A DNA stretch of 23,484 nucleotides, taken from IMG/VR virus record IMGVR_UViG_3300027972_000052, positions 1 through 23,484 of that record. One strand, given 5' to 3'. Each line of letters starts with the position of its first letter. The first letter of the stretch is position 1. The translations under genes and the position numbers were made by a program. The notes beneath the pieces are model-generated. The model made no database searches, had not been told where the DNA came from, and saw only the letters and a list, made by a program, of their open reading frames with translations. Origin of the DNA: a virus. Shown in pieces: positions 8,178 to 23,484 of the stretch.

Positions 8178-8695
8178 TCCAAATATCTCCTCGCCCTTCC
8201 AAACCACTCGGTGTCATCAAATGCCGCTATTTGTCTATTGCACCCATGGCATAGCAACCCCCTTACCTTCCCCGTTTTATGATCATGGTCAACAACGGTA
8301 GCCGGCTTGTTGCATAGGGCACAGTGACCACCCTGGTTCTCCAGCATGGTTTCCCACTTCATCTTTGAGATTCCATACTTAATACAACGAAGTGCCCATG
8401 TATCGGTGGGGGCGCATTCCTTGCAGATTCTTTGCTTATTACCAGTGGGCTTGTATTCCTTTTGGCAAACCTCACATATCTGGGGTTTCAGATTATCCGG
8501 CCTTCCGCCCTTCTTTGTATACCCATGGAACCGAGATAGGTTTACCTTCGTGCCTCGGGCAGTCGCAGAACACTTCAGGGAACAGTATTTTGATCTCCAC
8601 AAACGTGAAGCGCACTGAGATTGATATACTTTCCCACAGAACTCACAGGTCTTGAAGACCGTCCCTGCTTTTGCTCTGCCCTCCGCCAGAGTCAT
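8174..8695 (-). CDS. Recombination endonuclease VII-type HNH nuclease, probably free-standing homing endonuclease
   Basis: This encodes 173 residues, starting at a TAATG junction with GGAGGG upstream. The carboxyl half has the endonuclease VII/HNH pattern: C125-x2-C128, VDHDH at 135-139, a basic VRG at 144-146, and C149-x2-C152 followed by N153; D136-H139 and the Asn form the His-metal finger. Before this lie two further Cys clusters, C17-x2-C20 with C38 and C42, and C74-x2-C77 with C91-x2-C94, likely zinc-binding DNA-recognition modules. The family cleaves DNA (Holliday junctions in T4; many relatives are mobile HNH genes). It interrupts a run of virion genes and is not obviously structural, which suggests a mobile homing nuclease, though a packaging or junction-resolving role is possible. 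One 60-base stretch (8221-8280) is 48% GC, lower than a capsid-gene stretch (57%). Confidence 0.92.
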   Translation of the reverse strand: MTLAEGRAKAGTVFKTCEFCGKVYQSQCASRLWRSKYCSLKCSATARGTKVNLSRFHGYTKKGGRPDNLKPQICEVCQKEYKPTGNKQRICKECAPTDTWALRCIKYGISKMKWETMLENQGGHCALCNKPATVVDHDHKTGKVRGLLCHGCNRQIAAFDDTEWFGRARRYLE

Positions 8696-9057
8696 TAGTA
8701 TCCCCCTCCCGTCCTATAGCCGTCAAATGCAAGACTATATGATCCCGTTCCGGTGGCCCCGACATCGACGGCCATTTTAAGCCCGCTACAGGTTTCTGAC
8801 GCCTGATGACCAACGACGCCAAGGTTTAACCTGTACGCACCACTTGTTACCGTGGACCCCCACTTCATAAAAACGCTACTGACAGAATCATACGTTTCTA
8901 TGAGACTGAATTCACTTATCGTGCTTGCATTTTCAAACCCGATGAAGGCATTCGTAAGTACCCACCTCGTCCCGGTAACAGAGGGGAACATCGTCACGGA
9001 GTTTGATCCGTCGATTATCCCCCTGTATCTTACGGGATCCTGCATGAATACACTCAT
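8695..9057 (-). CDS. Small beta-rich virion protein, paralogue of the upstream gene
   Basis: This encodes 120 residues, starting immediately after the upstream stop (TAGATG) with AGGAAAG upstream. Alignment by eye to the 116-residue neighbour shows a clear duplication: an opening of Trp/Phe-x-Gln-x-Pro followed by a DG-x3-S segment, then RWVL with G-x-x-NA, a mid region ending in a Gly-His-Gln-Ala-Ser type motif, and an ending of the form MA-x-x-x-GA-x-TG with a final GY. The chain is beta-rich with few charged residues. It is probably a capsid decoration or minor tail protein, judged by its place between the capsid and adaptor genes. No named family is recognised. Confidence 0.75.
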   Translation of the reverse strand: MSVFMQDPVRYRGIIDGSNSVTMFPSVTGTRWVLTNAFIGFENASTISEFSLIETYDSVSSVFMKWGSTVTSGAYRLNLGVVGHQASETCSGLKMAVDVGATGTGSYSLAFDGYRTGGGY

Positions 9058-9408
9058 CTACTTTCCTACGTAGTATCCTGTAAACAACGCCGTGAAAGTC
9101 CCCGTAATGGCACCGATATTCAGAGCCATTCGAGAAGAATAAGATGAAGACGCTTGTATCCCGTGATCCCCAAGAAAGAATGTCTGGAAACCATTGGTGA
9201 CCGATGTGGCAAAGCAAAGGAACGTCGCACTGTTCGTGGAGTCATGCTCCATGAGACAAACAGTGATACTGGATGCCGCGTTACGCCACCCAAATGCCGC
9301 CGCTTGCAAAACCCACCGGGCACCCGCTACAGCCGTGAAAGCCGTAGCGGAGCCACCACCATCCATTTTGATTCTTGCACGGGCGGGGTTCTGTTCCCAT
9401 ACACCCAT
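9058..9408 (-). CDS. Small beta-rich virion protein, tandem duplicate partner
   Basis: This encodes 116 residues, starting at an ATG nine bases after the 122-residue gene stops, with AGGGGG as the ribosome binding site. It has few charged residues after the first 15, many aromatic and Ala/Gly/Thr residues, and the same spaced motifs as the next gene: RWVL near residue 31, FGWRNA, a Gly-Asp-His-Gly-Ile-Gln-Ala-Ser block, RMALNIGAITGT and a final FTGYY. The pair arose by tandem duplication. Position suggests a decoration or head-tail surface protein. The function is not established. Confidence 0.74.
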   Translation of the reverse strand: MGVWEQNPARARIKMDGGGSATAFTAVAGARWVLQAAAFGWRNAASSITVCLMEHDSTNSATFLCFATSVTNGFQTFFLGDHGIQASSSYSSRMALNIGAITGTFTALFTGYYVGK

Positions 9409-9417
9409 TTTTACCCC

Positions 9418-9786
9418 CTACAGCCCGATGGCAAAGAAGGGAAGACCCGTAGTCGCAACGTTGTTCCACATCATCGTAAACGAGGTAAGGTCGAGTGATG
9501 TGCTACCGCTTGCCAGATATCCCTCCGCATACGACGCGGTGCAAGATAGGCTACCCGTACGCACGGCGAACCTTGAAGTACCAACGTTGTAGTCAAACAT
9601 GAAACCCGAAGCGGGAGGTATACTCACAAACGCTACATTAGCGAGGCCCGGGACAGTCATGGTGGTAAGCGCACCCCCATACGTGCCCGTAAGCCTCCCC
9701 AGATAGAACTTGAAACCCCTCGATTTATACGAATCAAGTTCGGGGTTCCCGCTCAGTCCGATATCAAGACTTGCAGTCAAAGCCAT
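9418..9786 (-). CDS. Small beta-rich putative virion protein
   Basis: This encodes 122 residues with a good ribosome binding site (AAGGAG seven bases before ATG). A strong stem-loop lies in the 46-base gap upstream of it. The chain is neutral, rich in Gly, Thr, Ser, Ala and Leu, with alternating strand-like segments (FKFYLGRLTGTYGGALTT, VAFVSIPPASGFMFDYNVG). There is no signal peptide or clear membrane segment. It resembles the two following proteins in size and composition, but I do not see convincing residue-level alignment to them. A capsid decoration or fibre role is inferred from position only. Confidence 0.72.
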   Translation of the reverse strand: MALTASLDIGLSGNPELDSYKSRGFKFYLGRLTGTYGGALTTMTVPGLANVAFVSIPPASGFMFDYNVGTSRFAVRTGSLSCTASYAEGYLASGSTSLDLTSFTMMWNNVATTGLPFFAIGL

Positions 9787-9803
9787 TTAATACTCCTTAT
9801 AGT

Positions 9804-9825
9804 GGGGCGAGCCGAAGCCCGCCCC
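9804..9825 (-). promoter_or_regulatory. Strong intergenic hairpin with UUCG tetraloop
   Basis: In the minus-strand transcript the 22 bases fold as GGGGCGGGC, loop UUCG, GCUCGCCCC: nine pairs, one of them G-U, closed by C-G around a UUCG loop, a very stable combination. It lies between the 176- and 122-residue genes, with the ribosome binding site of the latter about 5 bases downstream. No run of U follows, so it is not a typical intrinsic terminator. It may protect or delimit mRNA segments or adjust translation of the next gene. Confidence 0.7.
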
Positions 9826-9832
9826 GCCATGC

Positions 9833-10363
9833 CTACGATGCCATACCCCCGATGGGATCGCCGAACAGGTACCAGTCATACGTACCCTGCGAGACGCTCG
9901 ACAGCGAAACCGCGAAGGTGTTGATAAGGCTGTCCGTTGCAACGGTCGCCGCGAACTGTCCAGATGAAGAGCAGAGGAACGCCGCCCCCGTCCACTTGAT
10001 CGCGCAGTTGATGTAGTTGTCAACAGACGAGGTAAGCTGAACCCCGATGTACGGGCCTCCAATCTGGAACCACCCGTCAGTATCAGAAGGAACGTTGGTC
10101 GCGGGGATCCCAACGTAGTACCTGGGCCACTGCGCGGAAGTTGCCGAAGCAAGGCCGTTGGAGTACACCGCAGTCGCAAAATACCCCACGCCCACAAGGG
10201 GGTTAGAGGCGCTACACACCCTCTGAAGAATCTTGGGAACGTTCGCCGTGGCCGAGGCTCCCGCGTGGGCAAAGATATGAACCCTGCCGTCCGCGTCTTC
10301 CCTCTTGAAATTGGAACCGTGGCGAATCTTATAAGTGCTTACATCACCGCCATAATAACTCAT
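9833..10363 (-). CDS. Putative capsid decoration / virion protein encoded next to the capsid gene
   Basis: This encodes 176 residues, with AAGGAG seven bases before the ATG. The gene directly follows the major capsid gene and is separated from both neighbours by about 45-base gaps that each contain a hairpin. The amino end (SYYGGDVSTYKIRHGSNFKREDADGRVHIF) is polar and may bind the shell; the rest is Ser/Thr/Ala-rich and strand-prone with a final WYLFGDPIGG segment. Genes directly after a capsid gene in phages commonly encode decoration or head-completion proteins, so that is my best inference. No family is recognised. Confidence 0.74.
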   Translation of the reverse strand: MSYYGGDVSTYKIRHGSNFKREDADGRVHIFAHAGASATANVPKILQRVCSASNPLVGVGYFATAVYSNGLASATSAQWPRYYVGIPATNVPSDTDGWFQIGGPYIGVQLTSSVDNYINCAIKWTGAAFLCSSSGQFAATVATDSLINTFAVSLSSVSQGTYDWYLFGDPIGGMAS

Positions 10364-12196: not shown

Positions 12197-12586
12197 CTAC
12201 CTACCTCCTAACTTATTAAGTAGTCCCTCCATGCCGGCGGGCGCAGGCTGTCCAGGGGGTGCAACCATGGGCTTAACGCCCGGCATCGTGGGGGGCTGTC
12301 CACCGGGCTTCAACCCGGCATCGTTCGCAATATTTCTCATCTTGTTCATGGGATTGGCATTCTGGGCCTGCTTCTTCGCCATTTCTACAAGCTGAGTCAC
12401 GGGTCCATCTACATCAATCCCCTGCTGACCGAGGAAGTCCCTGACGGTCATATCGGGGGAAAGCTGTCCAGATGCTCCCATAAGGGCGGCATCGTTCTTA
12501 TTGAACACGCTGAGATTTTTCATCACGGGAGACGGACCCTGCGGGGGCGCTCCCTGCGGCGGCATCCCTTTAGCCATATCACTCAT
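12197..12586 (-). CDS. Small Pro/Gly/Met-rich head-module protein
   Basis: This encodes 129 residues, with GGAGG eight bases before the ATG and an eight-base overlap with the portal gene. Two low-complexity ends (MPPQGAPPQGPSP at the start; PGGQPPTMPGVKPMVAPPGQ near the end) flank a helical centre (about residues 45-95) containing VRDFLGQQGIDVDGPVTQLVEMAKKQ. The ending MEGLLNKLGGR looks like a short docking helix. No family is recognised. Location between portal and scaffold suggests a minor head or portal-associated protein. An alternative start at the fourth codon (Met4) is possible. Confidence 0.75.
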   Translation of the reverse strand: MSDMAKGMPPQGAPPQGPSPVMKNLSVFNKNDAALMGASGQLSPDMTVRDFLGQQGIDVDGPVTQLVEMAKKQAQNANPMNKMRNIANDAGLKPGGQPPTMPGVKPMVAPPGQPAPAGMEGLLNKLGGR

Positions 12587-14468
12587 TTGGTTGTCCTCCG
12601 GCTGACATAAGCTGGGCCATCATGTTTTCAGGGCCGCCCGTCTCCGGACCGCCCGCTCCCGGCTGTCCACCGGGGGGTTGCATGGACTTCTCGAAATTGT
12701 CCTTCATGTCCTGAATAATCTGCTTGTACCGTGGGATTCTAAGGGCGGAGAGGGCCGCTTCCCACATCGGCATACCCGTCACAGGATTGCCCCCAGCCAT
12801 CTCAAGGAGCCTCAAGAACAGGTTTGCCAAGGACTGCTTGTCCATAGGCAGGGTGGAATTGGTCTGAATCTCAAGGTCGAACTCTGCGTATACGGGGTCC
12901 ACATCCCCAAACTCTTCGATAAACCGCATGTAGTCTTTCTCTACCTGCGCGTCCTCTTCGGTAGGCTCCACGCCCTCTTCTGGAGGTTTTGGAGTTCCGA
13001 TAGTCTCGGCCACCTGTGCGTTAGACGACCCTACCGTGTAGTAGTCAATCTTGTCGTCGCGTCCCAGAGAGAACTCTCTCGGCTCCGTGTAGAACTGCTG
13101 AGAGTTGCACAGGATGAGGTACAGAAGCCTCTTGACAGACCACTCGAAATTCCTTACCCGCTGGCGCGTCCGCGTGTAGGAGGACTCAATCAGCGTGGAA
13201 ATCTCGGTGGCCGACTGCCTCTGGCTCTTGGTAGTCATGCCCTTTGTAATGTCCGTGACCCCCGAAATCTCCTCTACGAGCTTCGAGAGGCCCGTCATAA
13301 ACTGAAGGACCGCCTGGTCAAAGTTGCCTATGTCTCCGACAAGAATGGGCTTCCCCTGGGGCATGGCCGCGAAGTTTGCCGCGAACACCCCGCCACCGGC
13401 AGGGATGGACTTCTTGAGGTCTTCGATGTCCACGCCACAATTGGTGTCAGCGAAAATGGGCGGGTCGCATCGATATCGGGTGTAGTTATCGAGAAGCTGT
13501 AGTGAACGGTTATAGGACTTGTTGAGTTCTTCAATCTGGTCCCCCTCGCCCATCCCGATAAAGGAGTGAGGAACGATGTAATCGTACAGAGCAACGTAAG
13601 GGGGCTTGCTGTGCTTATAGGCAGAAGGCTTATCCTCAAGAACTGCATCCTGAGTGAAGACCACGATCCTGCCGTTGGGGAACGCGGGGCGAGAACGCTT
13701 CTCCGCACCCTCCGTTTCCTTGTCTGTCTCGAACTCCTTATCAGCCTCTACCCTTACAAAGTAGTCTTCCGCTGTGTCGTCCTTGAGCCAAACCTCGTAC
13801 ACGGTGACATACTTGTTTTCAAGCTCCCACTGTTCTGCGTCGTCTGGGAACTTGTCATTCTCGTCGTCGGGCTTGACCTTCTTGGCCTTGTCTGGGTACT
13901 TGGTATAAACCCAAGAAAGCGGCTTTCTAATACGAGTCCCACAAATGGGAGCATCCCAAATATCGTCATAGCCCGGCGCACAGAAGAACAGACGGGGATC
14001 GACAAGCTCAACTCTATGCTCACCTCCGAACTCTGCCTCTGGATCGAAGTACAGTTTCACAATACCGACCTTCATAATGAGGGCGTCCAGAATCCACTTG
14101 AACGTCACCGCGTCCATATCCAGTTTGTCCCACAGGTATTCGAGAGACAGGGACAGACCGTCAAAGTAGTTCTGTAGGTAGGGCTTGCGGCTCCTGATAG
14201 ACCAGATAGGGCGGTTGTCGGTAATGAGGGGAGCAATCGTCATAACCGTGGAGAACATAAGATTGGCTACGATGGTCGAATCGGTGTCCTTGAGCTTGCT
14301 CTCGTCCCACCACTCGCCCTTGTACCGCTTGAGATAGCGGCTCATCTCGTCGCGCTGTTCCTGGGTTTCCTCGAAAAACTTATCGACAACGGTCTTCAGG
14401 CGCTTGAACTTCAGCGTCTCTTCCTTGTTCTTACCCTTCCCCGGCTTCAAGAAGTCCAACACCGCCAT
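12579..14468 (-). CDS. Portal protein
   Basis: This encodes 629 residues, starting at a TAATG junction. The content and length fit podovirus portals: an amino-terminal helical region (about 20-55, RDEMSRYLKRYKGEWW), followed by SIVANLMFSTVMTIAPLITDNRPIWS-type hydrophobic segments, a basic/acidic wing with KPLSWVYTKYP, and VALYDYIVPHSFIGMGEGDQIEELNKSYNRSLQLLDNY, where an E-N-K-x-N pattern near the clip and stem is common. The middle has TDITKGMTTKSQRQSATEISTLIESSYTRTRQRVRNFE, a long helix expected in the portal crown or stem. It forms the dodecameric DNA channel at one vertex and docks the terminase. It is placed directly before scaffold and capsid genes. The Pro/Gly-rich tail overlaps the next gene. 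Confidence 0.9.
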   Translation of the reverse strand: MAVLDFLKPGKGKNKEETLKFKRLKTVVDKFFEETQEQRDEMSRYLKRYKGEWWDESKLKDTDSTIVANLMFSTVMTIAPLITDNRPIWSIRSRKPYLQNYFDGLSLSLEYLWDKLDMDAVTFKWILDALIMKVGIVKLYFDPEAEFGGEHRVELVDPRLFFCAPGYDDIWDAPICGTRIRKPLSWVYTKYPDKAKKVKPDDENDKFPDDAEQWELENKYVTVYEVWLKDDTAEDYFVRVEADKEFETDKETEGAEKRSRPAFPNGRIVVFTQDAVLEDKPSAYKHSKPPYVALYDYIVPHSFIGMGEGDQIEELNKSYNRSLQLLDNYTRYRCDPPIFADTNCGVDIEDLKKSIPAGGGVFAANFAAMPQGKPILVGDIGNFDQAVLQFMTGLSKLVEEISGVTDITKGMTTKSQRQSATEISTLIESSYTRTRQRVRNFEWSVKRLLYLILCNSQQFYTEPREFSLGRDDKIDYYTVGSSNAQVAETIGTPKPPEEGVEPTEEDAQVEKDYMRFIEEFGDVDPVYAEFDLEIQTNSTLPMDKQSLANLFLRLLEMAGGNPVTGMPMWEAALSALRIPRYKQIIQDMKDNFEKSMQPPGGQPGAGGPETGGPENMMAQLMSAGGQPNE

Positions 14469-14746
14469 TAGATTTTGCTTACCTTCCTTGTCCCCTTGGG
14501 GGACGGATACAGCTTCTTCGAACCCTTGGAAGCGAGCCAGTTGTCACGCTCCCGCTTCTCGTAGAAGTTCTTACCCGCCCCCGGATCCCAACCCGGCGAG
14601 AAGTCAACCACGAACCGTGGAGGACTATTCCAGACCCTTTTTGCTTCCCGTCCGCAAGATGGACATAAGGGGCAACCCGTTGGAACCGAGTTTTCAAAGA
14701 CTTCCTGCCGCCCGTGTTCTTTACAAAGAACATCGTAGAATGGCAT
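14468..14746 (-). CDS. Zinc-ribbon protein of FmdB-like type
   Basis: This encodes 92 residues. Possible metal ligands are C8, H11 and the cluster C25, C28 and C31 in GCPLCPSCG. The opening MPFYDVLCKEHGRQEVFENS followed by CPLCPSC resembles small FmdB-type zinc-ribbon proteins (Y-x-Y-x-C, FE, then CP-x-C), though the first Cys pair is Cys/His here. The remaining half is basic and has a WDPGAGKNFYEKRERDNW segment that also occurs, from memory, in phage-encoded members next to portal genes. The ribosome binding site is weak (GACGG), and it ends in a TAATG junction with the portal gene. Function is unknown; a head-assembly or regulatory role is speculative. Confidence 0.75.
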   Translation of the reverse strand: MPFYDVLCKEHGRQEVFENSVPTGCPLCPSCGREAKRVWNSPPRFVVDFSPGWDPGAGKNFYEKRERDNWLASKGSKKLYPSPKGTRKVSKI

Positions 14747-14750
14747 ACCG

Positions 14751-14951
14751 TCAGACCCGAGGAGGAGTAGGGCCGCGATAAATGCCCTGGGGGGAGTTTG
14801 CGACAGGCTTGAACCCGGCTGGGTTGCCTCTCATACCCACGTTTTTAGACTGGAACAGCGGTGAACCTCCTTGCATCTGCGCCATAAGACGCTGGATTGT
14901 TTCAGGGGGCGCACCGAGTCCAAGAAGTAGTTCATACACGTTCTGTGCCAT
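14751..14951 (-). CDS. Small hypothetical protein before the head module
   Basis: This encodes 66 residues starting at the ATG at 14949-14951, which overlaps the cytidylyltransferase stop as TGATG; GGGGGG lies upstream. An in-frame TTG one codon earlier is unlikely to be used. The amino half is helical (VYELLLGLGAPPETIQRLMAQMQ); the second half is Gly/Pro/Asn-rich and ends IYRGPTPPRV. No motif or family is recognised. Its tight coupling to both neighbours suggests co-translation with the sugar cassette end and the zinc-ribbon gene, but it has more the character of a small head-module protein. Confidence 0.65.
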   Translation of the reverse strand: MAQNVYELLLGLGAPPETIQRLMAQMQGGSPLFQSKNVGMRGNPAGFKPVANSPQGIYRGPTPPRV

Positions 14952-15664
14952 CAATACCCCCCAAAATATCGGATAACATCACGATATCCGAAATCTCCAC
15001 TATTAGCAGACACAAATTTGCGTACTTTGTCAAGGTCTTGAACAGTATCAACGGAAGTGTTAATGTATGAGTAATCGTTAACGTCCCTGAGTTGGAAAAA
15101 CTTAAACAACGCAGGGTTGTCGTATGCGTAAAGTGTTACGTGTTCACGATATAGGGGATCGTCTGATAAATGATACATACGCTTTAGGGTGTTTCTGTGT
15201 AGAACTTCTACGTCCATCCCCTTGGGGTAGGAGCGCCGCAGAACGTTGGTGCTTATGTCAACCCTATTGTCGATATAGCCATATATCGTATTGTCAACCA
15301 AAACGGGATCAATTAGGGGGCAATCCCCACATACTCTTACTACCAGTTCGGCGTTACTCCAATTAGCGGCCCTTATGTATCTACCCAGTACGTTGTTCGG
15401 GTCGCCCGTATCGAGGTACGCCCAACACCCTTGAGCTTGGGCGTACTCTGATATCTCTCCGTCAGGGGTCGCCACGACGATCTGATGCAAGAGCTTGCTC
15501 TTCTTGAGCCTGTCGATAACCCACCCGATGACTGGCCTTCCGTTAAGGTCGGCCAGCATCTTACGGGGGAACCTCTGGGAATTGAGCCTCGCCTGAACAA
15601 TCGCTATGGCAATCGGAGGGTCATCTCTTCGAGAGTAGATGGACTGTGAGGTCGTCAAACCCAT
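14951..15664 (-). CDS. SpsF/PseF-like cytidylyltransferase (nucleotide-sugar activation)
   Basis: The reading frame is secure but its exact start is not: an ATG at 15664 has AGGAGG directly against it, whereas a TTG at 15658 has the same AGGAGG at a normal six-base spacing. With the ATG it has 237 residues. The nucleotide-binding signature ARLNSQRFPRK (residues 25-35) and the metal-site motif GDCPLIDP (113-120) mark the COG1861 (SpsF) / CTP-transferase family, also close to CMP-pseudaminate and CMP-Kdo synthetases. Family members link CTP or another NTP to an acidic or amino sugar. It overlaps the methylase gene upstream and a small gene downstream. The 3' part is unusually AT-rich (15001-15180: about 39% GC by my count), unlike neighbours at 50-58%. 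The exact sugar is unknown. Confidence 0.85.
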   Translation of the reverse strand: MGLTTSQSIYSRRDDPPIAIAIVQARLNSQRFPRKMLADLNGRPVIGWVIDRLKKSKLLHQIVVATPDGEISEYAQAQGCWAYLDTGDPNNVLGRYIRAANWSNAELVVRVCGDCPLIDPVLVDNTIYGYIDNRVDISTNVLRRSYPKGMDVEVLHRNTLKRMYHLSDDPLYREHVTLYAYDNPALFKFFQLRDVNDYSYINTSVDTVQDLDKVRKFVSANSGDFGYRDVIRYFGGY

Positions 15665-16214
15665 CCTCCTTCCCCGCGAATCCCTTGTCAATAAGTTTAA
15701 GCCCGTACTTCTTCTCGTATACGTCCCCGTAGGGGCCTCGGAAAAGAGCGCCAGCCTTCCCCCTGTAATGAATCTCCTCGAAGATGGGGTTGTCGTATTC
15801 CATACAAAGGACGTACCTGTTGGAACACCTGATAATCTCCTGCATGACGATATCCACTTCTTCCGGCTTCTGGTGGATCAGCACTCCTGCCGTGAATACC
15901 ATGTCAAAATAGTCATCCCTGAACGGGAGGTCGAAGGCAGAACACCTAACCGCATTAAGCTCTCGATACTTTGTGCGAAGCCCCGTCAAGGCCCTCTGGT
16001 TTATATCACATCCCCACGCATTACTGGGGGCCGGCAGGTACTTGGCAAGAAGGCTGATGTTCTGGCCCCCGCCGCACCCGACCTCCAAGACATTCTTAAA
16101 CTTAGCCTTGTAGACAATATCCCCCCAGAACTTAATCCGGGGGGAATAATCCTTGTCACACCTCACGGTGTAATCGTCTCCAAACTGTCCTGCCCACAGA
16201 GCCTCGTTACTCAC
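15621..16214 (-). CDS. Pseudaminic-acid biosynthesis-associated SAM-dependent methylase
   Basis: This encodes 197 residues. The chosen start is the GTG at 16212-16214, which overlaps the amidotransferase stop as GTGA and has AAGGAG at a normal spacing; a GTG two codons upstream is less well placed. Motif I is LEVGCGGGQN (about residues 43-52), the acidic residue after strand 2 is D70 in GCDIN, and FDMVFTAGVLIH (103-114) is motif IV. Beyond the methyltransferase fold, the opening LWAGQFGDDYTVR, the segment RCSNRYVLCMEYDNP and the later YRG and DDLT motifs match the family annotated as pseudaminic-acid biosynthesis-associated methylase (TIGR03587) as I remember it. In bacteria it sits in flagellin-glycan loci. 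The methylated atom is not known. Confidence 0.88.
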   Translation of the reverse strand: MSNEALWAGQFGDDYTVRCDKDYSPRIKFWGDIVYKAKFKNVLEVGCGGGQNISLLAKYLPAPSNAWGCDINQRALTGLRTKYRELNAVRCSAFDLPFRDDYFDMVFTAGVLIHQKPEEVDIVMQEIIRCSNRYVLCMEYDNPIFEEIHYRGKAGALFRGPYGDVYEKKYGLKLIDKGFAGKEDGFDDLTVHLLSKR

Positions 16215-17257
16215 TTCCACTCCTTTTTGTGCCTGTTAACAATGTCAAAGAACTCTTTCTCGGAATACCCCATGGTGTCGCAGAAGTCTTTCAGCGCCCA
16301 CGGATCAAGAACGCTGTCGTTCTTCGCTATCAAATCCTGGCCCTGAGCATAGGTAAGAGTCCCGTCCCGTACCCTTCGCGTGGCGATATCCGTGACCCTC
16401 TGCCACCCGAACTTGGGGTACTTGAGCCACAGGTGGACCATGTAGGCCACGGAGTCGATCTGCTCGTAGTTCTCGATGGTACCCTTTCGGTCCCACTCCC
16501 CCGTCAAGTCCCTGAACCCCATCTCTTTTGCAAGAGCAAGGTTCGTTACCGAACTCCACTGGAAGAAGTGGCTCATGTACATCACGAGAGGGTCGTTCTC
16601 CCCAAGCATCCACATGGGAAGGATGGAATCTACCTCCTTGGAAGTCACCTTGTAGCGGTCCCACATGGGCCTCTCGTCGTTGCACTGGTTAATCATCTTC
16701 CTGATGGTCGCGTTGGCGCTGAAAATATCATCCTCGGAAGTCCCGTACTCGTAGGCCGAGTTCTCCCCGAAGACAACAAGGGGGATACCCATCTGCTGTG
16801 CAATTCTAACCGGAATCGTGTAGATGGCGTATTCTACAAACTTCAGGGCTTCTCCCGTGGCCTCGAAAGCCGCTCGCGTGGCCCGCTTAAACAGGTTGTG
16901 CGAGATAGTGTACTGCCAGTGATTCAGGTTGTATTTGGTGATAAGGTTACGCAGATTGTAACTTCCCGCCTGAGTATGGGTAAAGGAATCCGTCACGGTA
17001 ACGAGAAGCGGGTTCATTCCGAAAGAGCACATCTGATGTACAAGGAAGTGAGAATCTTTACCGCCAGAGACAGGAATCAAACAGTCGTACTTGTGTTTCC
17101 CCCTGTAAGCGGACAGAATAGCCTCCAAATCCTGCTTCCGCTTGTCCCAGTCGATATCCTTACGCTTCTCGTAATTGATACACGCCCCGCATACACCATC
17201 CCGGAAGATCAGCCCGGGTCTGTTGTTCGGGAACCCGCACCTGCTACACCTTTCCAT
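16211..17257 (-). CDS. N-acetyl sugar amidotransferase, WbpG/PseA type (PP-loop ATPase)
   Basis: This encodes 348 residues. The start is the ATG at 17255-17257 with AGGAGG four bases upstream; an in-frame TTG further up would be preceded by no site. C4-x2-C7 and C23-x2-C26 form a zinc-binding head; SGGKDS at 64-69 is the PP-loop that binds ATP, and TDSFTH, a Glu/Asn-rich GENSAYEYG block and the EWDRKG segment follow. Together these match the N-acetyl sugar amidotransferase family (WbpG of Pseudomonas O-antigen; PseA of Campylobacter flagellin glycans), which converts an acetamido or keto/acid sugar to an amidino form using ammonia from a HisH/HisF-like glutaminase. No such partner is encoded in the window. 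It is the first enzyme of the cassette and starts within the 3' end of a small membrane-protein gene. Confidence 0.88.
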   Translation of the reverse strand: MERCSRCGFPNNRPGLIFRDGVCGACINYEKRKDIDWDKRKQDLEAILSAYRGKHKYDCLIPVSGGKDSHFLVHQMCSFGMNPLLVTVTDSFTHTQAGSYNLRNLITKYNLNHWQYTISHNLFKRATRAAFEATGEALKFVEYAIYTIPVRIAQQMGIPLVVFGENSAYEYGTSEDDIFSANATIRKMINQCNDERPMWDRYKVTSKEVDSILPMWMLGENDPLVMYMSHFFQWSSVTNLALAKEMGFRDLTGEWDRKGTIENYEQIDSVAYMVHLWLKYPKFGWQRVTDIATRRVRDGTLTYAQGQDLIAKNDSVLDPWALKDFCDTMGYSEKEFFDIVNRHKKEWK

Positions 17258-17362: not shown

Positions 17363-18916
17363 CTACTTGCTGAAGCGGTCGCCATACCCCATGGCGGTCT
17401 TCTTCTTGCACAAATCCATGATTGTGATGCCTTTCTTCACAAGGCCCAACGGGTCTTTCCAGTACTTGAAACTGAACTGCTCCACGACAGAGAAAATCAT
17501 GGATAGGGCATCTACCAAGTCATCCTTTCCTGCGTAGTTCTTGTTATATAGACCCATCTGGGTCATAAGGTCGGTGAGACGCGAGTTTATCGCTATCCTT
17601 CGGGAGCGCACGAACGACCCCAGAGTCAGGTTTATCCTGTCATACTTGTCCCTCTTTGTAATCTGGATAGGCTCGATAGGGAGGGATATGGGCTTTCTTT
17701 GCGCGGCCTCCCAGTTCGATTTCTTCATGTCGATAATGTAGCGAAGATGTTCCTGCAAGCCGAACTCAATACCGATCTTCCTGGGGTTGTACTTCTCATT
17801 TAGCTGGAGAATGAACTCCGCTGTCTGGTCGCCCGTCTTCTTGAAGTGGAACGCTTCTTCCACGAACACGTATCCTATCTCGTTCACGGCGGCCACGATA
17901 ATCGCAGTCTCGTCGGACCACGTATTCACAGTCGCCGCAGGGTCAACAGCCATGTAGTAGTTGTACTTTCCCTTGGGAAGCTCCTGGTACTGAGGCTGGG
18001 GAGGAGGGAAAAGCTGATCCTCCATGGGTTGCGGATCGCAGTAATACTGACACGACACCTGATAAGGCGTCATGCGCTTACGAAGACGGTCCATGATCTT
18101 CTGGTTGAAGTAGGAGTAGATAAACTTCCCATTTTCTATCACGGGCCGAATATAGATGTTATCGAATATCTTCTCTTTGCGGATGAAGTTGGTAAGGTCT
18201 TCGTAGTGGTACGGAGTGCCGATGTAGATTTCCTGCCCTCCCGGCTCAAGGACGCCCTGAATATACCCGTACCACTCCCTTGTCTTGTTCAACTGCTCCA
18301 TGGTCTGAGAGTTCTTGTCAGTCACAAGATCGTCGTAGATATGAACGTCGAAGTGCTTCCCGATGGGGTTCCCCCCGATACCAAAGACCTCGATCTGGCA
18401 CTCTTGGGGAGGGGAGATGCTTCCTTTCGGGTCGCGCCAGACCGTGAGTTGGCTCGCCCTGTTCACCTGCCAGCCCGTACCCTTCGGACCCGGGTCAACC
18501 AAAACCTCGGAAAACAATTGTATAAGCCGAGGGTTTGTAAGCATCCTTTTTATGCTCGCCAACTCCTGTTCGAGAAGGTCTGCCGTGGAGGAATAAAGGG
18601 CTTGCCGGATAAACGGGTCGCGGAGGATGTTCTGGATGAGCTTGATCTTGACCCACGAAGTCTTCATGTGCCTTCGAGGGACGATGCACATAACATCCTC
18701 GTTGGTAGACAGAACACCGGCAAGCCATCTATGGAAAACGGGGTCCACAAGTGGGCGGCCCCGCTTGTCTTTCGCCTCTTTCATGCCGAGAATATCATAT
18801 CCCAGAAAGAATAGGTCGGTAAGACACTTCCACTTCACCCATAGGGTCGCGGCTTCATTCTCGTCCTTGGTTTGCTCAAGGAACTCCTTGTATTTCTTGG
18901 TTTCTGTCTCTGTCAC
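17363..18916 (-). CDS. terL: Terminase large subunit (DNA packaging ATPase/nuclease)
   Basis: This encodes 517 residues. The start is GTG at 18914-18916, the only in-frame start after a stop at 18929-18931, and overlaps the upstream stop as GTGA; the binding site is weak. The ATPase half has the Walker A-like PRRHMKTSW (80-88), Walker B VHIYDDLV (191-198, with D195-D196) and coupling motif YIGTPYH (231-237). The nuclease half has the metal-binding acids D325 (MAVDPAA), E384 (IGIEFG) and the acidic KDDLVDA motif (464-470, D465/D466/D469). It powers DNA packaging through the portal and cuts concatemers. No small terminase gene is recognised in the window, and it is followed by sugar genes rather than directly by the portal, an uncommon arrangement. 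Confidence 0.95.
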   Translation of the reverse strand: MTETETKKYKEFLEQTKDENEAATLWVKWKCLTDLFFLGYDILGMKEAKDKRGRPLVDPVFHRWLAGVLSTNEDVMCIVPRRHMKTSWVKIKLIQNILRDPFIRQALYSSTADLLEQELASIKRMLTNPRLIQLFSEVLVDPGPKGTGWQVNRASQLTVWRDPKGSISPPQECQIEVFGIGGNPIGKHFDVHIYDDLVTDKNSQTMEQLNKTREWYGYIQGVLEPGGQEIYIGTPYHYEDLTNFIRKEKIFDNIYIRPVIENGKFIYSYFNQKIMDRLRKRMTPYQVSCQYYCDPQPMEDQLFPPPQPQYQELPKGKYNYYMAVDPAATVNTWSDETAIIVAAVNEIGYVFVEEAFHFKKTGDQTAEFILQLNEKYNPRKIGIEFGLQEHLRYIIDMKKSNWEAAQRKPISLPIEPIQITKRDKYDRINLTLGSFVRSRRIAINSRLTDLMTQMGLYNKNYAGKDDLVDALSMIFSVVEQFSFKYWKDPLGLVKKGITIMDLCKKKTAMGYGDRFSK

Positions 18917-19374
18917 CTTCGACGCCTGTTACGAGAGTGGATAACTCCCCCCATATACTTCGGTTTCTTCGCGGCCGCAGTAGTGGTCGTCGTACCCCCC
19001 GATGTATCCAGATTCCCGACAAGGGCCGATATCGCTTCCGTGATCTGTTGAATGTAGTGAAGTAGAAACATCGTCCCGCCCAGAACCGCTGTTCCAACTG
19101 TCATACCCGCGAAGGCCATCAGAGAGAAGATACTCCCCACTGTTGTCGCGGCCCCCGAAATGGTCGAAGTAAGGAAGTGAATAAGGAATGCCATCCCGGT
19201 CACTCCACTCGTCACCGCCACCGCTTCCAAGAGCAGGACATGGAGAAGGAATATGTTCCCAACTGTCGTAGATACGCATGTTATTGATCCTGCAAGCTCC
19301 TGTATTACTACAACCCCGGCGGTCCCTTGGAACCCGTCGCTCTGGAACCCTGTAGGCTGAAAACCCTCGGCCAT
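18913..19374 (-). CDS. Hydrophobic repeat protein with amino-terminal GFQ repeats
   Basis: This encodes 153 residues, starting at a TAATG junction with the 252-residue gene; no clear ribosome binding site is visible. The opening has three five-residue GFQ-x-x units (residues 4-18). Residues about 27-125 form roughly five degenerate 19-25-residue repeats with a [V/I]-S-x-[V/A]-[S/T]-T-x-x-G-x-hydrophobic pattern. The middle is strongly hydrophobic with a Met/Leu/Phe run, so it could be taken for several membrane helices. Because similar repeats occur in the 381-residue protein that lies in the fibre module, a fibrous virion role is the better inference. The carboxyl end is Thr-rich then basic (RNRRRR). 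No family is recognised. Confidence 0.7.
   Translation of the reverse strand: MAEGFQPTGFQSDGFQGTAGVVVIQELAGSITCVSTTVGNIFLLHVLLLEAVAVTSGVTGMAFLIHFLTSTISGAATTVGSIFSLMAFAGMTVGTAVLGGTMFLLHYIQQITEAISALVGNLDTSGGTTTTTAAAKKPKYMGGVIHSRNRRRR
19000..19296 (-). repeat. Degenerate protein repeats in the 153-residue gene
   Basis: About five units of 19-25 residues share a small/hydrophobic plus V-S or S-G-A-x-T-T-x-x-G start followed by a hydrophobic stretch (for example CVSTTVGNIFLLH, SGVTGMAFLIHFL, GAATTVGSIFSLM). Units are highly diverged. They resemble the repeats in the 381-residue protein, where the same S-x-x-x-G-x-hydrophobic phasing appears. Confidence 0.5.
19321..19365 (-). repeat. Three GFQ-x-x pentapeptide repeats
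   Basis: Residues 4-18 of the 153-residue protein read GFQPT, GFQSD, GFQGT. The units are perfectly periodic at five residues, in-frame with the gene. Such Phe-Gln-containing short repeats may be a docking tag. I recall similar motifs in other phage proteins but cannot check. Confidence 0.7.
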
Positions 19375-20132
19375 TAGTAATACTGCTCAAGAATAATAAG
19401 GCCCTGCGCCCCGTCCCCGCCCTTTACGCTACTTGAAGATGCTACATACGATCCCCCCCCACCGCATCCATAACCACCGGCCGTAGCTCCATTCGCCCTG
19501 TATCCCGCGACCCCCTGATATCCATAAGCATGAGCGGCCATACCACCGTATCCCCCATTCCCCACCGTACCCGAAATCCTTATTCCCTTTTCTCCAGACT
19601 GGCCGGTAATCATAAACGTCCCGTTGGAAGCAGATCCCCCAACTCCTCCTGCCGTAGAAGCGAGAGACGTACCTACCGTTATCGGTGCCGCAGTAGCGCC
19701 CCCGGGAAGGGCTGTAAACGTACCAGGTGCCGCCTCTCCAATCCACGTTGTAATCCCGACTGCTCCGGCGGCAGAACCAGAACCACCGGCCCCCCCTGTT
19801 CCGCACTTATACTGATAAGTAGTTGTAATCGAGGATATGCCTATGAAAAACTCGCAATACCCCCCGGCCCCGCCCCCGCCACCGGCGGCCCCGTTTGCGG
19901 CAGAAGCAGAAGCCCCAGCGCCCCCGCTTCCCCCTCCCCACATCCTCACAAATATGGCCCCCACCGAACCGGAAAGAGTAATCGTAGAAGAAACCGCGGT
20001 AGTTAGATAAAGCGTATCTTTGTACGTATACCCCAGAATCGTGTGGCTTGCGTTCCAGTGGGAGGGCATGACCCACGAAGAGGTGGCGTCATCGGCCACC
20101 GGGTTAGTGTACGGATGCTTAACGACAGGCAT
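19374..20132 (-). CDS. Glycine-rich tail adhesin-like protein
   Basis: This encodes 252 residues, with GAGG six bases before the ATG. The opening has NPVADDATSSWVMPSHWNASHTI, a tail-fibre-type amino end that recalls N-x-x-x-D...P-S-x-W-N-x-x-H segments in other phages. From residue about 68 onward the chain is dominated by Gly-Gly-Gly runs separated by short hydrophobic segments (RMWGGGSGGAG, GGGGGAGGYCEF, GNGGYGGMAAH, GGYGCGGGG), as in glycine-rich distal adhesins that use packed polyglycine helices to hold receptor-binding loops. The ending LIILEQYY is a common closing strand. It probably sits at the tip of the tail fibres and contacts the host. The exact partner is inferred. Confidence 0.8.
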   Translation of the reverse strand: MPVVKHPYTNPVADDATSSWVMPSHWNASHTILGYTYKDTLYLTTAVSSTITLSGSVGAIFVRMWGGGSGGAGASASAANGAAGGGGGAGGYCEFFIGISSITTTYQYKCGTGGAGGSGSAAGAVGITTWIGEAAPGTFTALPGGATAAPITVGTSLASTAGGVGGSASNGTFMITGQSGEKGIRISGTVGNGGYGGMAAHAYGYQGVAGYRANGATAGGYGCGGGGSYVASSSSVKGGDGAQGLIILEQYY

Positions 20133-20135
20133 AAG

Positions 20136-20414
20136 CTACCTCGCGCTCATGTAGATTTGCAGTTGCCCGCTGTTCAGACTCGCGGCCCTCGGGTTCTCGC
20201 ACCACAATCTGTCAAATACCCACCCGTCTGTGAAGTTGGCTCCATCGGCCTCCCCGACAAAGATGGTGTTGCTCGCGCTGTTCATCACTCTACACACTTG
20301 CCCTGCGGCAGTGGCCCCGACCCACCTGAGAGAGTTAAGAATGAATACGCCCGTAGCAATATCTCCGGAGGCCGTGAGGGTGTAAACACCAGTTCCCGTT
20401 CCCGTAACAGCCAT
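20136..20414 (-). CDS. Small beta-rich structural protein of the fibre module
   Basis: This encodes 92 residues, with GGAGG five bases before the ATG and a TAATG overlap with the upstream gene. It is predominantly beta-strand with few charges (YTLTASGDIATGVFILNSLRW, IFVGEADGANFTDGWVFDRLW, NSGQLQIYMSA). Proteins of this length with this ladder of Ser/Thr/Gly and Trp are found beside phage fibre genes; from memory they resemble a family of small virion proteins. No catalytic motif is present. It is probably a minor tail or capsid surface protein; confidence in function is low, in the reading frame high. Confidence 0.72.
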   Translation of the reverse strand: MAVTGTGTGVYTLTASGDIATGVFILNSLRWVGATAAGQVCRVMNSASNTIFVGEADGANFTDGWVFDRLWCENPRAASLNSGQLQIYMSAR

Positions 20415-21559
20415 TAGAACCTCCCTCTGTGAATCTTCATGTAGATACGAAGTTTGTTTATAGCGGACCCACCTGTTTTTGTAAGGTTTCCAATTATCGT
20501 AGACACCCCGTCAACAGCGGCCGTGAAAAGGCGGATTCCAAACAACTGTAGACTGCCGAAGGTAGAACTGACAGCATCCACGGCCCCCGCAAGAACTTGG
20601 AGTACGCCTTCTCCAAATGTTTCCAGATTCCCCACGGTAGAGGAAACAGCCGCGAAAGTGTCCGAAAGAAGCCTGTGCATTATGTAGGGAAGAGTATTCG
20701 ATATACTGCTTACTGCGGCCACCGTATTGTTAATGAGGTAATGGAAAATCTGGGGCAACAGAGACGGTAGACTGCTTATCGCATTTACGGCCCCCGCAAG
20801 AGCATGGATGATTTGTTCCGATGTGATAACTATGTTCCCGTAAAGCGTCGTGGCCCCCGAAACAATGTTATCCACAAGATAATGATACAAGTAAGGCAAG
20901 AAGTTTGACAGGCTACTCACTGCCGAGACTGCGTTGTTCACCAAGTAGTGATAGATATAGGGCAGAAGTGTATTAAGGCTCGCGGCCCCGGAAACAACGT
21001 TGTTAACAAGGTAGTGGTAGATGTAGGGGAGGAAAGAATTGGTGGAAGATGCGCCAGAAATACCTCCCGCCAACGCAATCCCCCCAGACGCGGCATACGT
21101 GACATAAGCGATAGATTCCCAAGTTCTGATAGATTCGGCCCCCGCATCAAACGGGTCATCAAGCGTTGTGTCACCGAGATTGAAATATCCGCTGTTACCC
21201 GTCCCCGTTGCCTTTGTGTAATTATAACACCCGTCGTTTACATAAACCACCCAATAAGAAGTACTCGCGGCCAAGGTTTCTACATAATCAGTATTATACC
21301 ACCCCTCTGGACTTAGCGCCGGAACCGTTATTGTTACAATGTCTCCCACCATGGCCCCGGGTTGGTCATTGGCCGAATCGTCTTCATATACCGCACAATA
21401 AATATGTTTATCTGATCCAGCCGTGTTTTTAGTATATACATAAAACTTGGCAGTCACGCCACCGCTTGCGTCTGTTGTATCTTCGCTATACCAAGCATAG
21501 TTTGCGTTAGCGCCTTCGTCTGTCAAGCTGGTTGTTTCGGTAAACCCAAGCTCCGCCAT
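20414..21559 (-). CDS. Repeat-rich tail fibre-like protein with beta-sandwich-like head
   Basis: This encodes 381 residues, starting at a TGATG junction with AGGA upstream. Residues about 1-155 look like a beta-sandwich of the carbohydrate-binding or cell-wall anchor type: KFYVYTKNTAGS, a DDSANDQPGAMVGD turn, and SYWVVYVND. Residues about 167-360 contain nine degenerate 19-25-residue repeats, several of which carry LPYIYHYLVNN. The last 20 residues are basic. The chain is rich in Ser, Thr, Ala and Leu. In the fibre module, after the beta-helix gene, a fibre or adhesin role is likely. Part of the gene is AT-rich (21241-21300 is about 38% GC by my count). Confidence 0.75.
   Translation of the reverse strand: MAELGFTETTSLTDEGANANYAWYSEDTTDASGGVTAKFYVYTKNTAGSDKHIYCAVYEDDSANDQPGAMVGDIVTITVPALSPEGWYNTDYVETLAASTSYWVVYVNDGCYNYTKATGTGNSGYFNLGDTTLDDPFDAGAESIRTWESIAYVTYAASGGIALAGGISGASSTNSFLPYIYHYLVNNVVSGAASLNTLLPYIYHYLVNNAVSAVSSLSNFLPYLYHYLVDNIVSGATTLYGNIVITSEQIIHALAGAVNAISSLPSLLPQIFHYLINNTVAAVSSISNTLPYIMHRLLSDTFAAVSSTVGNLETFGEGVLQVLAGAVDAVSSTFGSLQLFGIRLFTAAVDGVSTIIGNLTKTGGSAINKLRIYMKIHRGRF
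20480..21061 (-). repeat. Nine degenerate 19-25-residue repeats in the fibre-like protein
   Basis: Units begin with V/I-S-x-[A/V]-[S/T]-[S/T] and run about 19-25 residues. Units 1, 2, 3, 5 and 6 carry an LPY/LPQ-x-x-H-x-L-x-x-x block (LPYIYHYLVNN); units 4, 7, 8 and 9 instead have S/T-T-x-x-G-N/S-I/L. The alternating types look like an old expansion with later divergence. The DNA copies are visibly related, for example the repeated AAGTAGTGATAGAT-like stretch on the plus strand. Confidence 0.7.
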
Positions 21560-22731
21560 CAGTATATCCTAATGTAAGAAGTGGCCGCACCCTGCAAGGG
21601 GTGGGGATAGGTATATTCGGTATACGGGTAATAGGCATTGGCTCCAGACCCCGAAAATGTCATATCGGAAGCCCCGGCCCTCGTGGGATATGTCTCGCTT
21701 CCCCCGCTTGAGGCGGGAGCGTGAAGGAAATAATCGCGGTCCTCCTGAATAAAAGTAGAATCAGCTCCATTTTGCAAATGTATCCCGGCCGCGCTACCAT
21801 TCCTGGTATTGCCCCAAAAGAAAGAGTTCATAATCTGATCTTCTGCCGCCCACGCTCCGTCGAGTGGAGAGAAAAATGCCGCCTGCCATCCCTCCTCTTC
21901 ACTTAATACGATCTCGGTAGACGAGGTAACATAGGTAAAGGCATTGTTGTAACAAAGAATAGAGCCGCCCCGGAAATACAGAACCCTGTAAGACTTCTGG
22001 TAGTCAAACGTGTTCTCGTAGACCTCCACGATGGGCTGGCCCCTAAAATCCCCAGTACCATCATAGTAGTTCTGGTTTCCGTGAACATCAAATGGGCAAA
22101 AGTCGTAAGTGTACGCAGAGGCGTCGAAGGTATTGTACCGAATAACCGTTCGCGCCCCTTCCTGGTGGTAGATGCACTCGTTGACCTCAATACACGCCCC
22201 GTCTTGGGTAAAAGTGTTGTCCTCGATAAACGTTGCGTGTTCGGTTGCGGCGGCAATAGTCCTTCCCCACGCGTAATTGTTATCTCCAACAAGCATTATC
22301 GCCCTGTTACAGTTCAGAAACTCGTTGTGATCTATCAGCCCCTCGAACCAACCGTCGATATATATCGAATCGGTCCCATTCGAGTTTCTCCAAAACTTAT
22401 TCCCGTGTATTCTGACGCTATCAAGGCAATATGAATTACCCTTGTCACCAGAAATAAGGACTCCCTTCCCATCTTTGAAGCATATTCCACTAAGATCAAG
22501 GGCTTTGTCCGAGCCGGGGTTGAATCTGAACAACTGCCGAGTCGCACCGTCTGCCGTGATTATGGTAGATGCCGTTCCAGCCCCGACTATGGTAAGCTCT
22601 TTTGTAACGGTTAGAGTCCCTGCCCACGTCTCCGATCCGGCCGGGATAACAAGAGTATCCCCATCGTTGCAAAGACCCATCGCGGTATTAACTGCCGCAA
22701 GCGTAGCATCTGCGGCTACTTGTGTCGCCAT
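21559..22731 (-). CDS. Right-handed beta-helix protein, candidate depolymerase/tailspike
   Basis: This encodes 390 residues, starting immediately after the upstream stop (TAAATG); the ribosome binding site is weak. After an amino end with VNTAMGLCNDGDTLVIPAGSE, the classic pectate-lyase-like opening, there follow ladder-type units: LTIVGAGTASTIITADG, VRIHGNKFWRN, LIDHNEFLNC, FIEDNTFTQDG, VIRYNTFDAS, VEVYENTFDY, ILCYNNAFTY. The I/V-x-x-N-x-F repeats, each starting a helical coil, mark a right-handed parallel beta-helix. The ending YTYPHPL is common in such proteins. Phage members often degrade capsule or lipopolysaccharide as depolymerases, but a structural fibre is possible; no catalytic triad is assignable by eye. 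Confidence 0.83.
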   Translation of the reverse strand: MATQVAADATLAAVNTAMGLCNDGDTLVIPAGSETWAGTLTVTKELTIVGAGTASTIITADGATRQLFRFNPGSDKALDLSGICFKDGKGVLISGDKGNSYCLDSVRIHGNKFWRNSNGTDSIYIDGWFEGLIDHNEFLNCNRAIMLVGDNNYAWGRTIAAATEHATFIEDNTFTQDGACIEVNECIYHQEGARTVIRYNTFDASAYTYDFCPFDVHGNQNYYDGTGDFRGQPIVEVYENTFDYQKSYRVLYFRGGSILCYNNAFTYVTSSTEIVLSEEEGWQAAFFSPLDGAWAAEDQIMNSFFWGNTRNGSAAGIHLQNGADSTFIQEDRDYFLHAPASSGGSETYPTRAGASDMTFSGSGANAYYPYTEYTYPHPLQGAATSYIRIY

Positions 22732-23130
22732 TTAGTCCAGACTGATCGTCACCGACCCCACCGCAAAAGCCGCCACATCGTTCGTGGCAATAGTTCTTGC
22801 CGCAGTCAGAGTGCCCCACGCAATCATGCTTCCAGTAGCCGAATCCGTGAGCATGGCAAAATGCGTCAGAGAACCACCCCAGGTATTCGAGGAAGTTGCA
22901 TAAGTGATCGTGGCTACGTTGTAGATCGACCCTCCGGAGTCGGTGCAAGTAGACCAAGCGCCCGTGGACTTCCTTGCATAAGAACCACCCGTTGCCTCAG
23001 TTCCGCCCGAAGCATCAGAGGGGGCCACAGTGAACAAAGCCATCCACATCGTGGTAGATGCAATAGGCGCATCGTTCCCACCGATCGCATTCAGGATGTT
23101 CTTCTCAAAATAATTAGTAAAACTACCCAT
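22732..23130 (-). CDS. Small tail protein, Gp80-like family, second copy
   Basis: This encodes 132 residues, with AGGAGAAG shortly before the ATG. Residues 14-50 carry NAIGGN, MWMALFTVAPSDASGGTE and a GGSYARKS segment, the hallmark of small phage tail proteins I know from mycobacteriophage Gp80-like proteins; the later THFAMLTDSATGSMIAWGTL matches the same family. It shares these segments with the partial gene immediately upstream, so the two are tandem paralogues. It ends adjacent to the beta-helix gene. It is probably a minor tail or fibre-tip protein. The family name is recalled, not searched. Confidence 0.78.
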   Translation of the reverse strand: MGSFTNYFEKNILNAIGGNDAPIASTTMWMALFTVAPSDASGGTEATGGSYARKSTGAWSTCTDSGGSIYNVATITYATSSNTWGGSLTHFAMLTDSATGSMIAWGTLTAARTIATNDVAAFAVGSVTISLD

Positions 23131-23139
23131 TCTCTTCTC

Positions 23140-23484
23140 CTATACCGCCGCGTTAAAAATAGGAATGCTGTATGTCACTACCGTCTGGGGGATCGTCAAC
23201 GACGACCACATAATCATATTTCCTGTAGAACTATCATCAAAAAGCGCCCAACAACTCACATCCCCCCACCCCGCCGTAGCGGTCGCGAAGACAGTGTTGG
23301 TCACATTAGAAAACCCCACCCCCGACCCCACCACTGTCGCGGTAGTCCAAGCTCCCACGGACTTCCTGCCGTAATTCCCCCCAGAAACCTCCGTCCCCCC
23401 AGAAGCATCACTTGGCGCACTGGTAAACAACCCCATCCATAAACTCATGGAGGCCACCGGGGACCCGTTCCCCCCCATGGCATT
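23140..23484 (-). CDS. Small tail protein, Gp80-like family, first copy, 5' end cut by window edge
   Basis: The visible part encodes 114 residues and continues beyond the right edge. The first visible codons, N-A-M-G-G-N, align with N-A-I-G-G-N at residues 14-19 of the paralogue, so about 13 residues are missing and the internal Met at 23478 is not the start. It has MSLWMGLFTSAPSDASGGTE, GGNYGRKSVGAW and CWALFDDSSTGNMIMW, matching the next gene. Its carboxyl end is a few residues shorter. It is probably a tail or fibre-tip protein. Confidence 0.76.
   Translation of the reverse strand, partial: NAMGGNGSPVASMSLWMGLFTSAPSDASGGTEVSGGNYGRKSVGAWTTATVVGSGVGFSNVTNTVFATATAGWGDVSCWALFDDSSTGNMIMWSSLTIPQTVVTYSIPIFNAAV

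Follow-up and report, generated by a model that had tools for sequence, protein, structure and literature searches.

A phage gene cassette between terminase and portal with a predicted role in nonulosonate-type sugar modification

Introduction

What are three sugar enzymes doing between the terminase and portal genes of a phage? The question is raised by a linear virus fragment from IMG/VR that is 23,484 bases long and corresponds to about half a genome; the whole of this stretch is called the window below. A first-pass annotation had recognised three overlapping ORFs at this site and read them as a PP-loop N-acetyl sugar amidotransferase, a pseudaminic-acid-associated methylase, and an SpsF/PseF-like cytidylyltransferase, i.e., a cassette for nonulosonate-type sugar modification. 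Most sugar enzymes known from phages are lone glycosyltransferases or belong to sets of one or two genes that edit a sugar of the host. If the reading proposed here is true, phages can themselves decorate proteins with sialic-acid-like sugars, which would have consequences for adsorption, for the exclusion of superinfecting phages, and for the recognition between phage and host.

Results

Layout of the Locus

Almost every gene of the window lies on the minus strand. In the direction of reading, fibre-/head-like genes are followed by the terminase large subunit (TerL), the amidotransferase, the methylase, the cytidylyltransferase, a 67-aa ORF, an FmdB-like zinc ribbon, the portal, the scaffold, the major head protein, small paralogous structural proteins and, finally, internal or tail proteins. 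TerL (17363..18916, minus strand; PHROG 38 with 8e-64, Terminase_6C) forms the upstream boundary of the cassette, and a portal of the P22/SU10 type (12579..14468, minus strand; PF16510 with 66 bits, PHROG 156 with 3e-41) forms the downstream one. All three overlapping ORFs of the first-pass annotation are present between them on the minus strand: the amidotransferase at 16211..17257, the methylase at 15621..16220, and the CMP-sugar cytidylyltransferase at 14951..15691. The amidotransferase starts at ATG 17257 with a clear AGGAGG in front and overlaps the methylase ORF by 10 bases. The overlap of the cytidylyltransferase (CMP-transferase) with the methylase comprises 71 bases if counted from TTG 15691 (the longest frame) and 44 bases from ATG 15664; the true start is probably ATG 15664 or later. 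The 67-aa ORF (14751..14954, minus strand), whose start codon overlaps the stop of the CMP-transferase, has no family match, and the FmdB-type zinc-ribbon protein (14468..14746, minus strand) scores under the family cut-offs.

Several other features of the window deserve mention. The fibre-/head-like genes that precede TerL (18913-23484) stand where relatives have TerS-like and nonulosonate (NulO) genes, so the order is rearranged. The segment 20414-21559 encodes hydrophobic Ser-rich repeats of ~30 residues, FLPYIYHYLVNN-like, with tape-measure-like PHROG matches, and STTVGNI-type stretches encoded at 18913-19374 resemble them. An Endonuclease VII/HNH-type gene, possibly a homing endonuclease, is found among the structural genes (8174-8695); another such gene is located directly before the amidotransferase in a relative (L003:127-651).

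Identity of the Three Enzymes

HMM searches against the families TIGR03573 and TIGR03587 placed the first two proteins above the curated cut-offs. The amidotransferase (WbuX/PseA/PtmG-type) reaches 255.7 bits against TIGR03573 (WbuX) over residues 1-340, the cut-off being 203.2. The motifs pointed out in the first-pass annotation, SGGKDS and two CxxC pairs (C4/C7 and C23/C26), turned out to be invariant in all four phage homologues aligned (the window, L002, L003, and L004), and a profile of these four matches the N-acetyl sugar amidotransferase 8wex in the PDB with 5e-28. The window protein is predicted from its sequence to be a sugar-amidating enzyme. The methylase, a SAM-dependent methyltransferase (Methyltransf_25/11), obtains 136.5 bits against TIGR03587, the pseudaminic-acid-associated family, with a cut-off of 112.05; a PtmH-like role is proposed for it.

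The third assignment held only in part. The protein is a cytidylyltransferase of the CTP_transf_3 family (PF02348, 102 bits vs. a gathering score of 22.6), seemingly of the nonulosonate type, and its nearest named models are KdsB-like (SpsF/KdsB-like). The name PseF was rejected, since the score against the PseF equivalog TIGR03584 is 40.6 bits vs. a cut-off of 205.7. The best PDB relative of a five-phage profile is 6oew (E 3e-52), an entry named only 'Cytidylyltransferase'. In general, all three proteins belong to sugar-enzyme families, as had been claimed, and the searches placed none of them outside.

Conservation of the Cassette

Relatives were found by searching viral contigs with the proteins of the window and with their alignments. 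Such searches rely on short peptide patterns and overlook some members: a single-sequence pattern search of the viral contigs with the CMP-transferase gave no match, although relatives exist. All counts given here are therefore lower bounds.

The amidotransferase, methylase, and CMP-transferase genes occur in identical order in seven IMG/VR contigs, namely the window and six further contigs from other metagenomes (L002, L003, L004, L005, L016, and L029). Wherever both ends are visible, the cassette sits between TerL and portal; in L003 (G002), TerL is located at the opposite end of the contig. A one-off chimeric assembly join, named in the first-pass annotation as a refuting outcome, is rejected because seven contigs share the same site. 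As L016 and L029 are closely related, the contigs represent about six independent lineages. A branch of the TerL tree with support 99/97 separates the seven cassette contigs from seven others that run from TerL to portal without the cassette or are cut before its site. As this tree is unrooted, both a single gain and a single loss fit.

L016 and L029 are the sole pair close enough to measure selection, and in this pair the cassette is under purifying selection. The dN/dS is 0.18 for the amidotransferase, 0.10 for the adjoining WbuZ gene, 0.05 for the methylase, and 0.035 for the CMP-transferase, with synonymous differences at 9–34% of sites in those four genes.

Two Subtypes of the Amidotransferase

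The amidotransferases of the seven contigs fall into two subtypes. The first, found in the window, L002, L003, and L004, is nearest to archaeal and Patescibacteria homologues, with 55–59% identity. The second is distant; it occupies the same slot and has a HisF-like WbuZ gene after it in L005 (8189-9995), L016 (4294-6062), and L029 (11500-13268). A grouping of L005, L016, and L029 is rejected by the TerL data (AU p 5.5e-5), as is a grouping of the window, L002, and L005 by the amidotransferase data (p 2e-50); these p-values are optimistic, as the tested groupings were picked after the identities had been seen. The two trees conflict, which implies at least one replacement of the amidotransferase at this site. 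The methylase and CMP-transferase trees are compatible both with a swap of these genes along with it and with no such swap (AU p 0.12 and 0.06, respectively).

Cellular homologues of the amidotransferase have PseC-like neighbours and partly also methylase, CMP-transferase, PseB-like, and NeuB-like genes. Close homologues lie in sugar clusters of archaeal (Altiarchaeales, Thorarchaeota) and Patescibacteria contigs (L035, L036, L037, and L038); in L035-L037 the amidotransferase is clustered with methylase, CMP-transferase, and PseB/PseC-like genes.

Backbone Synthesis Genes in Relatives

Three of the five relatives longer than 38 kb (G002, G004, and G006, about 45 kb each) carry PseB-, PseC-, and NeuB-like and GNAT genes in addition to the cassette, with the common order DUF115, PseB-like, PseC-like, short NeuB-like, GNAT. 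DUF115, CMP-transferase, NeuB-like, and DegT genes are present in all five contigs of this size. Since NulO-synthesis genes and a Maf-type glycosyltransferase gene accompany the cassette in relatives, the nonulosonate-type reading of the first-pass annotation gains support and moves from motif reading to pathway evidence.

The individual family matches are of uneven strength. For the PseB-like proteins, TIGR03589 is the best NCBIfam family, with 287–315 bits vs. a cut-off of 407.75. The PseC-like proteins score 318, 186, and 42 bits, under the cut-off of 423.5, against what is still their best-scoring NCBIfam family, and that of G004 has only 206 aa. The GNAT protein of G004 matches PseH weakly, and that of G006 matches no NCBIfam family. 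The NeuB family PF03102 is over the cut-off in G004, G006, G008, and G009, and the NeuB-like protein of G002 was recognised only by alignment to those four. The motifs K.Q, KIA, SDHT, and EKH are retained in the short NeuB, which has about 210 aa. A sequence search of the PDB with this protein gave no match, and its relatives there were found by fold comparison alone: its model, which is of low confidence at residues 122-182, has a single Foldseek match under E 0.001, to a putative SpsE (NeuB family), and KDO8P synthases come next. No PseG hydrolase (TIGR03590) was found in any relative, the search covering 16 contigs, most of them fragments. Likewise, the window has no match to PF01973, PF03102, or PF02719, i.e., no DUF115, NeuB, or PseB gene.

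G008 and G009 lack the TerL-portal cassette and follow a different sugar route, carrying a full NeuB, a B12 radical SAM protein, DUF115, CMP-transferase, a DegT aminotransferase, and an SDR. Cassette-less loci with a full NeuB, B12-binding radical SAM, DUF115, CMP-transferase, DegT aminotransferase, and SDR lie at L054:6308-15076 and L055:2749-10004. In two phages, a small membrane-like protein that contains HExxH, reminiscent of zinc proteases, or a related motif is encoded directly after the GNAT of the NulO cluster (L014:12723-13226 and L005:4012-4533).

A Probable Maf-Type Transferase in Relatives

PF01973 (DUF115/MptE-like) is above the cut-off in all five contigs longer than 38 kb. Among PDB entries, a five-sequence profile matches the Magnetospirillum Maf glycosyltransferase 5mu5 best (2e-8); CMP-sialyltransferases, matched weakly, come next among enzymes. 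An AlphaFold2 model of the DUF115 protein (pLDDT 62 and pTM 0.64, the core being better) also finds 5mu5 as its best fold match (Foldseek 5e-8; Z 19.8 over 228 residues at 3.0 A), ahead of an archaeal HPPK (Z 12.7) and CMP-sialyltransferases (Z about 9). The match to the PseD family NF050051 is partial, with 31 bits in one relative vs. a curated cut-off of 670. An assignment as a pterin kinase (HPPK/MptE) was rejected in view of the weaker fold match, the absence of a sequence match to such kinases among solved structures, and gene neighbours that do not fit. Judging by the modelled fold and gene context, the DUF115 protein is probably of the Maf type and would transfer NulO to protein.

Discussion

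Proposed Pathway and Acceptor

With modest confidence, we propose that the cassette is the finishing module of a phage pathway for a pseudaminate- or legionaminate-like NulO, and that a Maf-like enzyme attaches this sugar to proteins, most likely those of the virion. In relatives, the backbone would be made by the PseB/PseC/PseH/NeuB-like enzymes encoded upstream of the terminase. The cytidylyltransferase would convert the nine-carbon acid into CMP-NulO, the amidotransferase would turn an acetamido group into an acetamidino group, and the methylase would N-methylate the latter; the last two of these steps are modelled on the PtmG/PtmH reactions of Campylobacter. There and in Legionella, PtmG converts CMP-Leg5Ac7Ac into the 5-acetamidino form, which PtmH then N-methylates (PMC3766260, PMC13317340). 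The three cassette enzymes fit this order of reactions. The Maf-type (DUF115) transferase would finally move the sugar from CMP to Ser/Thr residues of protein in the cytoplasm, where Maf-dependent glycosylation is known to proceed (PMC4065374). The window phage may encode its own transferase in the missing half of its genome. One counterpoint to the pathway as a whole is that enzymes can be repurposed.

The likeliest acceptors would be Ser/Thr-rich small capsid or fibre proteins, which would give the virion a chemically unusual coat. We favour virion acceptors because the cassette is embedded among head and packaging genes, and on this evidence of position we lean towards them over host flagellin. 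The Ser/Thr content of the window virion proteins singled out no acceptor candidate. Runs of small structural proteins in which Ser and Thr together make up 19–28% are encoded at 8695-10363 and 22732-23478; they might be decoration proteins and accept the glycan. A more specific version seems to us possible rather than probable: the lineage would make an N-methyl-acetamidino NulO de novo and O-glycosylate its own virion by the Maf-type enzyme, the swap of amidotransferase subtypes being a chemical switch of the coat. If the proposal holds, specified proteins of the virion should show a constant shift in mass.

Alternative Explanations

The data suggest that, in line with the two options of the first-pass annotation, these phages coat either their own particles or the host surface with a relative of sialic acid, and the second of these options is an alternative that we consider possible, if on balance unlikely. 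In that case, the Maf-like enzyme would act on host flagellin or another surface protein, or CMP-NulO would enter the O-antigen or capsule, with the result that superinfection is blocked or the cell is masked. Maf proteins are indeed flagellin glycosyltransferases (PMC4065374), and Acinetobacter prophages carry enzymes altering the pseudaminate of the host capsule (PMC12053666, PMC6586298). However, the neighbours of the cassette are late genes for packaging and head, which is late for remodelling the surface, and no polymerase, flippase, or LPS glycosyltransferase is seen in the cassette; both points count against this explanation, short of refuting it. A Maf-type enzyme also favours cytoplasmic protein O-glycosylation over LPS or capsule editing. 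It is rather improbable, in our estimate, that the three enzymes merely remodel a host-made NulO and that the window phage has neither a pathway nor a transferase of its own. The window does hold just these three genes, with no DUF115, NeuB, or PseB family match, and the known prophage cases act in this way (PMC12053666). However, it is a 23.5-kb fragment, and cassette-bearing relatives of ~45 kb encode synthesis genes and the transferase.

Two further explanations appear very improbable. The PP-loop enzyme, methylase, and nucleotidyltransferase might act on a nucleic acid instead of a sugar and so produce a hypermodified base. PP-loop enzymes act in base modification too, and the PP-loop domain of GMP synthase is a marginal match; this is outweighed by the scores above the sugar-amidation and NulO family cut-offs and by the NeuB, PseB, and Maf-like genes that accompany the cassette in relatives. 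Equally hard to credit is a functionless chance cargo or assembly artefact, for which nothing speaks beyond the small number of contigs, and against which stand the shared site in seven contigs, the low dN/dS, and the kept motifs.

Relation to Known Systems

The closest counterpart of the proposed finishing module is ptmG/ptmH of Campylobacter, with its Legionella homologues, where an amidotransferase and a methylase likewise act on a CMP-nonulosonate in a pathway that contains a CMP-NulO synthetase (PMC3766260, PMC13317340). The genes described here differ in being phage-borne and clustered in a single cassette flanked by terminase and portal; they are likened by role, their substrate and regiochemistry being predicted only. 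The Maf/PseD systems of Aeromonas caviae and Magnetospirillum (5mu5) share a DUF115 transferase encoded together with NulO synthesis genes. In contrast to these, the DUF115 proteins of the phage relatives are shorter (about 420–460 aa, the 5mu5 chain having 666) and have no flagellin gene in view, and DUF115 is absent from the window fragment. Enzymes that modify a nonulosonic acid are also encoded by Acinetobacter prophages (epaA/epaB, O-acetyltransferases; PMC12053666, PMC6586298). Those prophages edit a host capsule sugar with one or two genes, whereas the relatives studied here encode most of the synthesis steps and a protein-type transferase. For virion glycosylation in mycobacteriophages, we know of no description of nonulosonate biosynthesis or a Maf-type enzyme. 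Mycobacteriophages such as Maravista resemble the present case in having phage glycosyltransferases, with capsid glycosylation suggested (PMC11256854). A Bacillus phage paper was discarded as a precedent, as it merely cites a KDNase.

In the open-access papers searched, which covered few subscription titles and no preprints, no phage with both NulO synthesis and a Maf-type enzyme was found described. Similarly, 50,697 GenBank phage records gave no match to the window amidotransferase, the L005 subtype, the methylase, or the DUF115 protein of G006. The clues to the host are scarce: there are no tRNAs in the window or its relatives, no GenBank phage is near (TerL identity is <30% among the matches listed), and a genome scan with the amidotransferase returned only cellular-looking archaeal and Patescibacteria loci. 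The lineage would offer compact natural enzymes for making CMP-nonulosonates. The same GenBank phage records contain three distant matches to the CMP-transferase, and NeuB- and PseB-like genes occur by themselves in a small number of phage records that are large or unannotated. A distant CMP-sugar transferase is encoded in the unannotated record of a 462-kb uncultured jumbo phage (L056, LR756500.1).
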